From a virus: a stretch of DNA of 64,000 nt. Positions 33,653 to 59,297 of the stretch are shown here, in pieces. A program made the translations under genes and the position numbers. Position 1 is the first letter of the stretch. Every line of letters starts with the position of its first letter. Location of the stretch: positions 62,001 to 126,000 of IMG/VR virus record IMGVR_UViG_3300024336_000005; one strand, 5' to 3'. The notes below the pieces were generated by a model. It made no database searches, was not told the origin of the DNA, and saw only the letters and a list, made by a program, of their open reading frames with translations.

Positions 33653-34711
33653 ATGAGTGATTATCCAGATGGAACCATTATTGTAGGTCTCCAGGATGGA
33701 GACGAAAGCAAGGGAAAGGTGGCGGCGGCTCTTTGTTCGCTACCGCAAGTGACCCATTGTGTTCGCTATAGTGGTGGACAGAATGCAGGCCATGTTTTCT
33801 ACAAGGATGGCCTACAGGTTGTCACTCATATCATTCCCTCTGGGATTGTATATGGGAAGGTCTCGGTGATTGGTCCTGGCTGCGCCTTCTCTGAGAAGGG
33901 CTTCTGGGCTGAGCTAGAAGACATTTGTGATGCACTGGGGGAGACCATGTTGAATCTCTCTCGCTTGATCAAGATCTCCCCTGCTGCTCATATCGTCCAG
34001 GACAAGCACATCGTTTTGGATGAGGCGACAGACAAGATTGGATCTACCAAGAGAGGGATCGCCCCAGTCTATGCCGATAAGGCTATGAGGACGGGCATCC
34101 GAGCCGAGAGCATTCCAAGCCTAAAGCCTTTCTTGTGGGATACGACTAAGCTCAATGACCCAAAGAATGTCATCGTATTTGAAGGGGCTCAAGGCTTTGG
34201 CCTTGATCCTGATGTAGGAGATTATCCCTATATCACCAGCTCCTCCTCTCTCCCTGGTGCGATCAACAATGTTGGTGTGCCCATCTGGGCAATCAATAAG
34301 ATTGTTGGAGTTGCAAAGCTCTATGCGACCTATGTTGGGACCAAGGAATTCGAGCCAGATCTAGAGATTTTCTCAAAGCTTCGTGAGCTCGGAGGGGAGT
34401 ATGGCTCGACCACAGGCCGTCCTCGACAGTGCAACTGGTTGAATCTTGATACTCTCATCACTGCTATTCGAACCTGTGGTTGTACTACGGTCGTCTTCAG
34501 CAAGTGCGACATCATTGAACAGCTTGGCGTTTTCAAGTTGATTGATGGTGGTACAGTTCGAGAGTTCGGGAATATGGCTGGCATGATTGCTCACATTAAG
34601 CGAGAGCTTAAGGAGGAGGCACCAAGTACAAGTCTAATCTTTAGTGGCAGTCAATACACAGTTGAAGATGACTATGGCCATCTTGCTGAAGAGCCGATGG
34701 GAGAGATTTGA
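33653..34711 (+). CDS. Adenylosuccinate synthetase homologue (PurA/PurZ family, 352 aa)
   Basis: GLQDGDESKGK (P-loop region with the Asp that PurA uses as catalytic base), SGGQNAGH, HIIPSG, STKRGIAPVYADK, VFEGAQG and GSTTGRPR follow the family order. The length (352 aa) is shorter than bacterial PurA (about 430) and like viral/archaeal forms. PurA joins aspartate to IMP; viral PurZ acts on dGMP to make 2-aminoadenine DNA, usually with the Asp replaced. Here Asp is kept but a Ser follows Glu. Which reaction it catalyses is unresolved. Confidence 0.85.
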   Translation: MSDYPDGTIIVGLQDGDESKGKVAAALCSLPQVTHCVRYSGGQNAGHVFYKDGLQVVTHIIPSGIVYGKVSVIGPGCAFSEKGFWAELEDICDALGETMLNLSRLIKISPAAHIVQDKHIVLDEATDKIGSTKRGIAPVYADKAMRTGIRAESIPSLKPFLWDTTKLNDPKNVIVFEGAQGFGLDPDVGDYPYITSSSSLPGAINNVGVPIWAINKIVGVAKLYATYVGTKEFEPDLEIFSKLRELGGEYGSTTGRPRQCNWLNLDTLITAIRTCGCTTVVFSKCDIIEQLGVFKLIDGGTVREFGNMAGMIAHIKRELKEEAPSTSLIFSGSQYTVEDDYGHLAEEPMGEI

Positions 34712-34782
34712 TGTCCTCGATTACAGAGGGTATTCTTGCTAGGCTGATGGAGAAGCCTGGCAAATTTGAAGGAGAATTCTGA
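34711..34782 (+). CDS. 23-aa micro-ORF
   Basis: ATG overlaps the stop of the synthetase gene; GGAGAG lies upstream. The peptide ends just before the RNA ligase start. Probably a coupling ORF. Confidence 0.35.
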   Translation: MSSITEGILARLMEKPGKFEGEF

Positions 34783-34784
34783 AT

Positions 34785-36146
34785 ATGTACCAAGCAATTG
34801 TTGCCAACATTCACACCCGTCCACATCCGGGAGCTGATCGAATTCAGCTAGGAACTGTATGTGGCCATCAGGTTGTATGCGGGCTTGACATTGCTGATGG
34901 TACTCTCGGTGTGTTCTTTCCTTGCGATGGCCAGCTAAGTCATGACTTCTGTGTGGCCAATGATGAGTACCCTCGGCTTGATGAACAGGGGAAGAAGGTC
35001 GGTGGCGGATTCATCAATCCTAAGAACCGTCGCGTAAAGGCACAAAGCTTTCGTGGTGAAAAGTCGGATGGCTACTGGGTTCCAATGGATAAGCTCATTA
35101 AGTGGGCAAATCATGTTTGGCGCGAGGATGACAAGGGAGACCATGTCCTCTTGTCCAACCGTGTGCAGAGCCTTGTAGAAGGTGACACCTTTGATTCCGT
35201 TGGCGATGTGCCTTTGTGTAACAAGTATGTAACTGAGAAGACCCTTAAGGCTCTTCAGAATCAGGCCAAGCAGGCTCGCAAGACTCATACTCAGTTCGCT
35301 CAGCATATTGATACCAAGCAGTTCCGATACAACATTGGAAACATCCCGGAGGGTTCCATTGTATGGATATCTGAAAAGCTTCACGGTACTAGCGGTCGCT
35401 ATGGGTACGTTCAAGCTCTTCGTGAGCTCGGTGGCCGTTTTAATGCTTTTGTTCGCAGGGCTTTTGATTGGTGCGCTGATAAGCTTGGTCTTGATGTAAG
35501 CCCTAAGTATGAACATGTTATGGGCTCACGAAGGGTTGAGCTCTCTGCTCAGTCAGAAGGGTTTTACGGCTCGATAGATTTCCGTGCAAATGTAGCAAAC
35601 AAGTTGAAGGGAAATCTCCTCAAGGGTGAGTGCATTTATGGAGAGCTAGTGGGTTGGACTGGTCCTGATTCTTTGATCATGGGCCGCCACTCAACCAAGA
35701 AGCTCGGCAAGGAGCTTCGCAAGCAGTACGGAGAAGAGGTCACCTATACTTATGGACAGCCAAACGGTTGTTCTGAGTTCTTCGTTTATCGAATCACTCG
35801 TGTTGGCCCAGATGGTCAGACGATTGAGCTCGGTGAGCGTGAGATGCGGGCAAGGGCGAGGGTCCTCGGCTTCAAGACTCCAGAGCTCTTTGCGGGGCCG
35901 ATGGTAGTTCACGACTATGCTGATGATAAGTGGGTCGATGGTGGCAAGACGCTCATGCAGGTCGTGGAAGCCTACCTAAATGGACCATCGATTGAAGACT
36001 CACGACATCCTCGAGAGGGCGTCGTGATTAGGGTTGACAGGCCTGACGGGACTACCATCTGGCTCAAGGACAAGAACCATCCGTTCAAGGTAATGGAGGG
36101 TATCGCTAAGGATTCCGGCGAAGCAGACATGGAAGAAAGCTCATGA
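34785..36146 (+). CDS. Rnl5-like RNA ligase (453 aa)
   Basis: The N-terminal OB-like domain (1-150: GADRIQLGTV, VFFPCDGQLS) is followed by the nucleotidyltransferase core: motif I EKLHGTS with adenylated Lys198, motif IV EGVVIR near residue 405 and motif V WLKDKNHPFK near 425. The OB-then-ligase order matches the Deinococcus DraRnl/Rnl5 group, which seals RNA 3'-OH/5'-PO4 ends in nicked duplexes. With the PNK-like and 2H-like proteins it could form an RNA repair or tRNA-splicing pathway. Confidence 0.85.
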   Translation: MYQAIVANIHTRPHPGADRIQLGTVCGHQVVCGLDIADGTLGVFFPCDGQLSHDFCVANDEYPRLDEQGKKVGGGFINPKNRRVKAQSFRGEKSDGYWVPMDKLIKWANHVWREDDKGDHVLLSNRVQSLVEGDTFDSVGDVPLCNKYVTEKTLKALQNQAKQARKTHTQFAQHIDTKQFRYNIGNIPEGSIVWISEKLHGTSGRYGYVQALRELGGRFNAFVRRAFDWCADKLGLDVSPKYEHVMGSRRVELSAQSEGFYGSIDFRANVANKLKGNLLKGECIYGELVGWTGPDSLIMGRHSTKKLGKELRKQYGEEVTYTYGQPNGCSEFFVYRITRVGPDGQTIELGEREMRARARVLGFKTPELFAGPMVVHDYADDKWVDGGKTLMQVVEAYLNGPSIEDSRHPREGVVIRVDRPDGTTIWLKDKNHPFKVMEGIAKDSGEADMEESS

Positions 36147-52638: not shown

Positions 52639-53051
52639 AGCTGAGAGGAAAGCCCCATATTCTAGGAAGCCTTGACAGTTCGGAGAGACGAACGCTTTAT
52701 CTTATCCAGGAGGTGGGCTTAGAAGCAGCCATCCTTTAAAGAGTGGGCATAGATGAAGCTTAACCGATTGATCTTATCTAATCATGACACGGATAGGAGA
52801 AGCTTAAGTTAGCACCTCTCAATAAATTCGAATTGGACCCAGGTTGGCTTCCTGGTTGGCCTTTACGAGAGAGTCTTGTAAGAAAGCGGGAAGAGACTTA
52901 GTCAGTCTTATAAAGAGAGCGAAACCGAACGCAACTCTTTGTTCTATTTTAGAACTGGTGTGAATCCTATGACGGGATGTATTTGGTTAACAAACGAGAG
53001 AATTGACTCTGCCCTCCTTTTAGCGTAATAGCACACTGGATAGATAACTTT
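52639..53051 (+). ncRNA. 23S GTPase-centre-like RNA with about 275-nt insertion
   Basis: 52704-52744 (CCAGGAGGTGGGCTTAGAAG, then CAGCCATCCTTTAAAGA) closely matches the first part of the 58-nt L11-binding domain of 23S rRNA (E. coli about 1052-1093). 53022-53040 (AGCGTAATAGCACACTGGA) matches its 3' part. TATCCAG (52703-52709) pairs with CTGGATA (53036-53042), rebuilding helix 42. Between them are structured sequences including CTTTGTTCT-ATTT-AGAACTG, similar to an inside-out GAAC/GUUC element. No gene seen. Confidence 0.7.
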
Positions 53052-53137
53052 GGCCGGGTGGTGGAACGGTATTCACACTGCGCTTAGAACGCAGCGCCCT
53101 TACGGGATTGAGAGTTCGAATCTCTCCTCGGCTACCA
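53052..53137 (+). tRNA. tRNA-Leu(TAG)
   Basis: Class II: acceptor GGCCGGG/CTCGGCT, anticodon arm CTGCG-CTTAGAA-CGCAG, variable arm, T arm GAGAG/CTCTC, CCA encoded. Confidence 0.92.
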
Positions 53138-59164: not shown

Positions 59165-59297
59165 TCTGGTGTCGCTTAATGGTAGAGCAGGCGGCTGTGG
59201 TTTATTGCAAGGGCATTACAAGGGTCTTAACCTTGGTAGGCCTCATAACCGCCCGGGGGAAACTCCATTGTAGGTTCGACTCCTACCACCAGAGCCA
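59165..59297 (+). tRNA. tRNA with 47-nt anticodon-loop insertion (Asn GTT or His GTG)
   Basis: Acceptor TCTGGTG/CACCAGA, G73, CCA, D and T arms canonical. The anticodon stem GGCGG (59190-59194) / CCGCC (59249-59253) is perfect but the loop holds 54 nt with a CAAGG/CCTTG hairpin. Removing 47 nt leaves CTGTTAA (Asn) or CTGTGAA (His), depending on the junction. U1-A72 and G73 favour Asn. Too short for a group I intron. Confidence 0.75.

Follow-up and report, generated by a model that had tools for sequence, protein, structure and literature searches.

The GTPase-associated center (GAC) of 23S rRNA, nucleotides 1051-1108, is the uL11 and thiostrepton domain, and uL11 binds the 58-nucleotide rRNA domain in isolation. 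Copies of ribosomal protein sites outside the ribosome are found in leaders such as that of L10 (rplJL) and the L1-binding leader of the L11 operon. To our knowledge, mimicry of rRNA is known only in this form, as cis control of ribosomal protein genes. Phages carry a different kind of structured RNA, represented by GOLLD and ROOL, which lies near tRNA islands and whose function is unknown (PMC12286853).

We analyzed a 64,000-nucleotide stretch (the window) of a 204,008-base virus record; the window holds approximately 25 tRNA genes and a tmRNA gene. A first-pass annotation, made by reading the letters alone, had proposed a mimic of the L11 site split by about 275 nucleotides. The element in question has a small open frame on one side and tRNA-Leu(UAG) on the other, and the comparison with rRNA agrees. 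Window positions 52706-52742 are identical to E. coli 23S nucleotides 1052-1088 at 34 of 37 positions (blastn against E. coli rRNA, E 1.5e-7), the strongest rRNA match anywhere in the window, and positions 53022-53039 match nucleotides 1090-1107 at 17 of 18 (blastn). A search with LSU covariance models, the check that the first-pass annotation had suggested, returned the first half of the element with both RF02540 (21.0 bits, E 5.8e-4 in the local stretch) and RF02541 (25.1 bits, E 8.2e-7 in the 204-kb record); neither score reaches the gathering score of 50, which is what a fragment would give. A lack of significant LSU matches, the outcome that would have refuted the first-pass proposal, was not observed. 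A covariance model built from phage copies only, with the window left out, matches 52701-52797 (56.8 bits, E 8e-16) and 52874-53044 (24.0 bits, E 7e-6), and it also finds the true 23S rRNAs of E. coli and Paenibacillus at 54-61 bits (54 for E. coli). The element at 52703-53042 contains 23S nucleotides 1055-1104, with U1090 at 52744, G1091 at 53023 and 278 nucleotides in between. Its parts are as follows.

52701-53044, plus strand: whole element, a candidate gene for a noncoding RNA that folds like the GAC (uL11 site); both halves are matched by the phage-copy covariance model, and 114 relatives have the same layout.
52703-52709, plus strand: 5' strand of the closing stem P1, TATCCAG, in place of helix 42; complementary to 53036-53042 and covarying in the family.
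52709-52744, plus strand: 5' part of the GAC, 23S nucleotides 1055-1090 (helix 43, its loop, 1082-1086 and the 5' strand of helix 44); identity of 34/37 to E. coli 23S 1052-1088, and Rfam LSU matches.
52745-53022, plus strand: inserted arm of 278 nucleotides between nucleotides 1090 and 1091; the insertion point is that of 96 regular members, and there is no Rfam match.
52745-52749, plus strand: 5' strand of the predicted basal stem of the arm, GGGCA; pairs by sequence with 53010-53014, and the arm base covaries in the family.
53010-53014, plus strand: 3' strand of the same stem, TGCCC; pairs with 52745-52749, with the arm base covarying as above.
53023-53036, plus strand: 3' part of the GAC, 23S nucleotides 1091-1104, with the helix 44 loop GCGTAATAGC and the 3' strand; identity of 17/18 to E. 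coli 23S 1090-1107, model E 7e-6.
53036-53042, plus strand: 3' strand of P1, CTGGATA; pairs with 52703-52709.
53052-53137, plus strand: tRNA-Leu (UAG), directly 3' of the element (ARAGORN, Rfam); tRNA neighbors on the same strand are typical of the family.

Single-sequence folding gave the whole 344 nucleotides no unusual stability (z -0.52); the case for the element is a comparative one. The existence of relatives is a point absent from the first-pass annotation. A blastn search of this stretch against phage records matched unannotated DNA of Pseudomonas phages UNO-G1W1, Milchi, Astolliot and pf16, Aeromonas phage 4_4572, Cronobacter phage GAP32 and Pectobacterium phage CBB. The copies fetched from these cultured phages contain the same split domain, with inserts of approximately 107 to 223 nucleotides at the identical nucleotide. 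Pattern scans extended the set: the 5' half of the GAC lacking its rRNA continuation occurred in 41 IMG/VR stretches, and the 3' half alone in at least 120 viral stretches, with the 5' half no more than 900 nucleotides upstream in all but 7 of the 120 listed. When 84,980 bacterial and archaeal species genomes were scanned in a similar way, 26 matches came up, about six of them clear members and mostly on metagenome-assembled contigs. Later queries added Serratia phage BF, Erwinia phage Kaldavass and the SNUABM phages, and Xanthomonas phages XbC2 and XacN1. All members that were fetched are confirmed by the covariance model (E 2.7e-23 to 5.8e-40), two of them (L002 and L004) having been part of its training set. 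After merging, the family has at least 114 members, a lower bound set by the collection scan, and nearly all are viral contigs; 103 are of regular form, and 96 of these align without gaps. One member lies on plasmid 1 of Aromatoleum aromaticum EbN1 (NC_006823; 1280-1560 of the fetched locus), near traT and an HU gene, which means that the RNA is not strictly a phage trait. The element belongs to a recurrent family. Neither Rfam 15 nor the open-licence papers searched contain a description of such an RNA, its absence from those papers being weak evidence of novelty; a literature lead on phage Riptide reports only uL24 and L7/L12 genes.

Pair statistics were taken over 88 non-redundant members. 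Columns belonging to the search pattern are conserved by construction, and the statements on pair 1058-1080, the closing stem and the arm are independent of them. Pair 1058-1080 is formed in 100% of the 88 and uses all four Watson-Crick types (GC 31, UA 28, AU 24, CG 2, plus three G-U), and the helix 43 pairs 1057-1059/1079-1081 and 1062-1064/1074-1076 are formed in 98-100%, in line with the compensated changes claimed for this helix. The rebuilding of helix 42 by TATCCAG/CTGGATA also held up across the family: the sequences of P1 are unrelated among members, yet each of 9 positions is paired in 72-100% of cases, most of them by more than one or two pair types, and the covariation spans 8-9 bp. 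Nucleotides 1082 and 1086, which we take to form the tertiary pair known from the ribosome, are paired in 93% (UA 47, CG 26 and AU 9 of 88), with a mutual information of 1.11 that was matched in 0 of 1000 shuffles; this variation comes from members found through the 3' half only. At a single intergenic site in one jumbo-phage lineage, the same pair is U-A in GAP32 and A-U in BF, Kaldavass, XbC2 and SNUABM_47. U1060-A1088 is kept in 88 of 88, and G1087-C1102, G1091-C1100 and C1092-G1099 are invariant in these members, the last becoming U-A in a diverged copy in the L183 record. In a separate test on an alignment of 49 sequences, 93.2% of cells were paired compared to 71% after shuffling and 37-58% after sliding, and the covariation score was 0.568 compared to 0.151. 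Because the stem replacing helix 42, helix 43, pair 1082-1086 and the base of the arm all covary, the RNA keeps the ribosomal fold; because the sequence is free outside nucleotides 1054-1105, the part that is kept is a domain of the size bound by uL11.

The loops are also largely retained, with A1095 present in 87 of 88 members. Nucleotides 1067 and 1068 vary among members found by the 3' half (A 40, G 14, C 3 and U 2; G 44 and A 15, respectively). We considered reading the variation of A1067 as a relaxed contact with EF-G or thiostrepton, an idea weakened by the G1067 of Bacteroidota 23S itself.

These data bear on whether the element is simply a captured or contaminating piece of 23S rRNA, or one split by a spliced intron. 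Its high identity to 23S over 37 nucleotides would fit such an origin, and organelles are known to have intron sites in this region of large-subunit rRNA. However, the same derived layout recurs in more than 100 contigs and in cultured genomes, and the closing stems, which are not those of rRNA, covary together with the arm base. Contaminating or transduced rRNA is rejected on these grounds; the first-pass annotation had also argued against contamination. In the record, no full LSU rRNA was found, helix 44 being broken at 1090/1091 by the 278 nucleotides, and the 16S model had no match. An intron is rejected as well: neither the window element nor 13 other member loci match a group I or II intron family in Rfam, and inserts as short as 30 nucleotides sit at a fixed site with a covarying base. 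With covariation refuting it, an accidental origin is highly improbable. On this comparative evidence, the window element is a member of an RNA family that keeps the ribosomal GAC fold, neither rRNA contamination nor an intron.

In the 96 regular members, the inserted segment always lies between nucleotides 1090 and 1091 and begins with G; its 3' end is almost always C, followed by UUUG or UUUA, and the first three to four pairs at its base covary. Its interior ranges from 30 nucleotides (in L078) to 363 nucleotides. A motif, GGCACCCCGNAACNGGUAAGGCY, occurs approximately 30 nucleotides from the 3' end in 20 of the 96, the window arm not among them, and in 11 members another segment is inserted directly following nucleotides 1077-1078. 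Neither the arm of the window element nor the arms of the 13 other member loci are covered by an Rfam family. The first-pass annotation had raised the possibility that the insertion is removed from the transcript, which the fixed position, the span of lengths and the covarying closing helix speak against. Most likely the inserted segment forms an arm, presumably retained in the RNA.

An arm this variable, and at times this long, raises the prospect that the GAC serves as a well-folding brick in a larger scaffold RNA like GOLLD or ROOL, with the arm doing the work and no ribosomal protein bound. A precedent is offered by large structured RNAs, of unknown function, that lie close to the tRNA islands of phages (PMC12286853). 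Rfam matches to GOLLD or ROOL were absent from the window, from the element at E≤10 and from 13 member loci at E≤0.05-0.1. Against a scaffold, ribosomal features are kept down to the tertiary pair while the arm is not conserved and shrinks to 30 nucleotides in L078, and other protein sites (uL1 and SRP, described below) are copied in the same phages. We consider a scaffold role unlikely.

The genomic setting points to expression with tRNAs. A tRNA gene lies within 40 nucleotides of 35 of the 96 members and within 500 nucleotides of 50, on the same strand in 50 of 50; within 2 kb the strand agrees in 59 of 59. In 33 of the 96, the stretch covered contains no tRNA. Seventy-three of the 96 lie outside any open frame, and only short frames, none longer than 691 nucleotides, overlap the rest. 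From this arrangement we infer tandem expression with the tRNAs. Other RNA-related features of the window include the tmRNA gene (23869-24490), which at 622 nucleotides contains long inserts relative to the 374-nucleotide model, and a 130-nucleotide tRNA match (59165-59294) that probably has an insertion or intron inside. At 33653-36146, a PurZ-like adenylosuccinate synthetase (PHROG 1211) is followed by an RNA ligase (PHROG 968), so a genome with modified bases is possible. A Type-P5 twister ribozyme match was seen on one member phage contig (L103, 12687-12763).

Phage tRNAs can offset defenses that cleave tRNA. A position on the same strand within tRNA arrays, together with the copied GAC loops, would suit an RNA that draws off a nuclease, a methyltransferase, another defense effector or an antibiotic aimed at the host GAC. 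We know of no anti-phage effector that attacks the GAC, and most nucleases would not need an intact uL11-type fold. Thiostrepton and the methyltransferase TsnR both target the domain, in favor of such a substrate, but TsnR prefers a bare hairpin (PMC9508554), and its target nucleotide, 1067, varies in the family. This role appears quite unlikely.

The first-pass annotation had cited a second rRNA mimic in the same phage, and an rRNA-like piece is indeed present: window positions 42913-42942 match 23S nucleotides 1912-1941, from the helix 69 loop to helix 71, at 27 of 30 positions (blastn). Within 42906-42975, GTCGGG...GTTCCG comes after the 23S-like core, in agreement with helix 71; the 5' strand of helix 69 is not preserved. 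The core is also that of the I-CeuI site. Four viral contigs (L175-L178) contain 24-25 nucleotides of the helix 69-71 core with no rRNA around it. An excised uL1-stalk site (23S approximately 2110-2182) was found in five phage loci, where helices 77 and 78 show compensatory changes.

L065, 1641-1711, minus strand: excised uL1-stalk site of 23S with compensatory changes.
L179, 4444-4514: the same.
L183, 4723-4793, minus strand: the same.
L187, 388-458, minus strand: the same.
L117, 1729-1794: the same.

They represent at least two lineages, L117 standing apart from the other four. The GAC RNA is present in four of the five records, and L065 has a second, diverged copy; among 35 control tRNA-bearing viral records, which are smaller than the member phages and not size-matched, it occurred in none at E≤1e-3, and a single match, at 0.005, was no better than chance. 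Another member contig, L143, has a free-standing SRP RNA helix-8 (Ffh-binding) hairpin between two tRNAs (642-685; 37.8 bits, E 4.6e-7); the other matches of that scan look by eye like ordinary SRP RNA genes. On the member contig L057, a 27-nucleotide segment (403-429) matches the 16S 530 loop at 25 of 27 positions.

The supposed protein partner fared less well. The bL12-CTD-like protein attributed to this phage was not recovered, as Pfam PF00542 has no match in the 204-kb record at E≤1e-3; a bL12-CTD-like match occurs in 9 of 50 GAC-RNA phages, compared to 0 of 35 of the smaller controls. These nine, and the well-kept loops with A1095, are what one would look for if the RNA and uL11 formed a small platform for GTPase activation, one that could bind EF-G, IF2, RelA or a stalk protein and change its activity. 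However, helix 42, on the L10 side, is not preserved, this record and most members have no bL12-like protein, and the sarcin-ricin loop, which factors also need, is absent. A platform of this kind is very doubtful.

We favor another explanation, to which we assign a probability of roughly 0.5: the GAC fold would belong to a phage RNA that acts in trans, displaying the site bound by uL11 and taking up uL11 that is free. A uL11 domain kept with its tertiary contacts, a free helix 42 on the L10 side, and the uL1 and Ffh sites carried by related phages are most simply read as a capture of host proteins that bind RNA. The RNA would probably be transcribed together with the phage tRNAs and trimmed beside them. 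The transcript would then fold as the GAC, with helices 43 and 44 and their tertiary contacts set on the closing stem instead of helix 42, and with the variable arm leaving helix 44 between nucleotides 1090 and 1091. As a decoy, its uL11-binding surface could capture newly made or exchanging host uL11, leaving ribosomes of the infected cell to run without it. RelA activation requires uL11, and uL11 affects the action of release factors and EF-G. Given these roles, a decoy that lowers uL11 on ribosomes might alter release-factor use and factor-dependent GTP hydrolysis and perhaps, as a guess, blunt RelA/ppGpp signaling. The arm may determine how stable the RNA is or how many copies are present, or it may bring in a second factor. 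Against uL11 capture stand the 33 of 96 members with no tRNA in the stretch, the variation at nucleotides 1067/1068, the member on a plasmid and an arm that is not accounted for; moreover, uL11 is dispensable for growth in E. coli, so the benefit of a decoy is not obvious.

More tentatively, the uL11 decoy could be one part of a kit. Phages and some plasmids might carry excised protein-binding domains of host ribonucleoproteins (the uL11, uL1-stalk and Ffh/SRP54 sites, perhaps others such as helix 69-71). Stable decoys of this sort, made mostly from tRNA arrays, would titrate the corresponding host proteins and in this way retune translation and secretion in the infected cell. If it is true that a free, widespread and mobile RNA rebuilds a ribosomal center with its tertiary pairs, it would represent a new viral route to the host ribosome and a defined tool with which to ask what ribosomes lacking uL11 do during infection. 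Carriers include cultured phages, which are at hand for study. Sequence resembling rRNA is often masked or taken for contamination, and such RNAs may have escaped annotation in this way; if masking is the explanation, a class of phage RNAs becomes directly searchable.

Set beside the GAC of 23S rRNA, the phage RNA has the same helices 43 and 44, the same loops and the contacts U1082-A1086, U1060-A1088 and G1087-C1102. In contrast to it, the phage RNA is free-standing and on mobile DNA, with an extra arm between nucleotides 1090 and 1091, a linker that reads UUUG or UUUA, A or G at nucleotide 1101 and unrelated stems for helix 42. Like the L10 (rplJL) leader and the L1-binding leader of the L11 operon, it copies a ribosomal protein site outside the ribosome. 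Whereas those leaders act in cis before ribosomal protein genes, the GAC RNA lies among tRNAs on phages with no such gene after it: the next feature 3' of the window element is the tRNA-Leu, L12 is absent from the record, and no uL11 gene (PF00298) was found in 50 GAC-RNA phages. With GOLLD and ROOL it shares the character of a structured phage RNA near tRNAs, but its sequence and structure differ from theirs, and its defining part is the GAC core.
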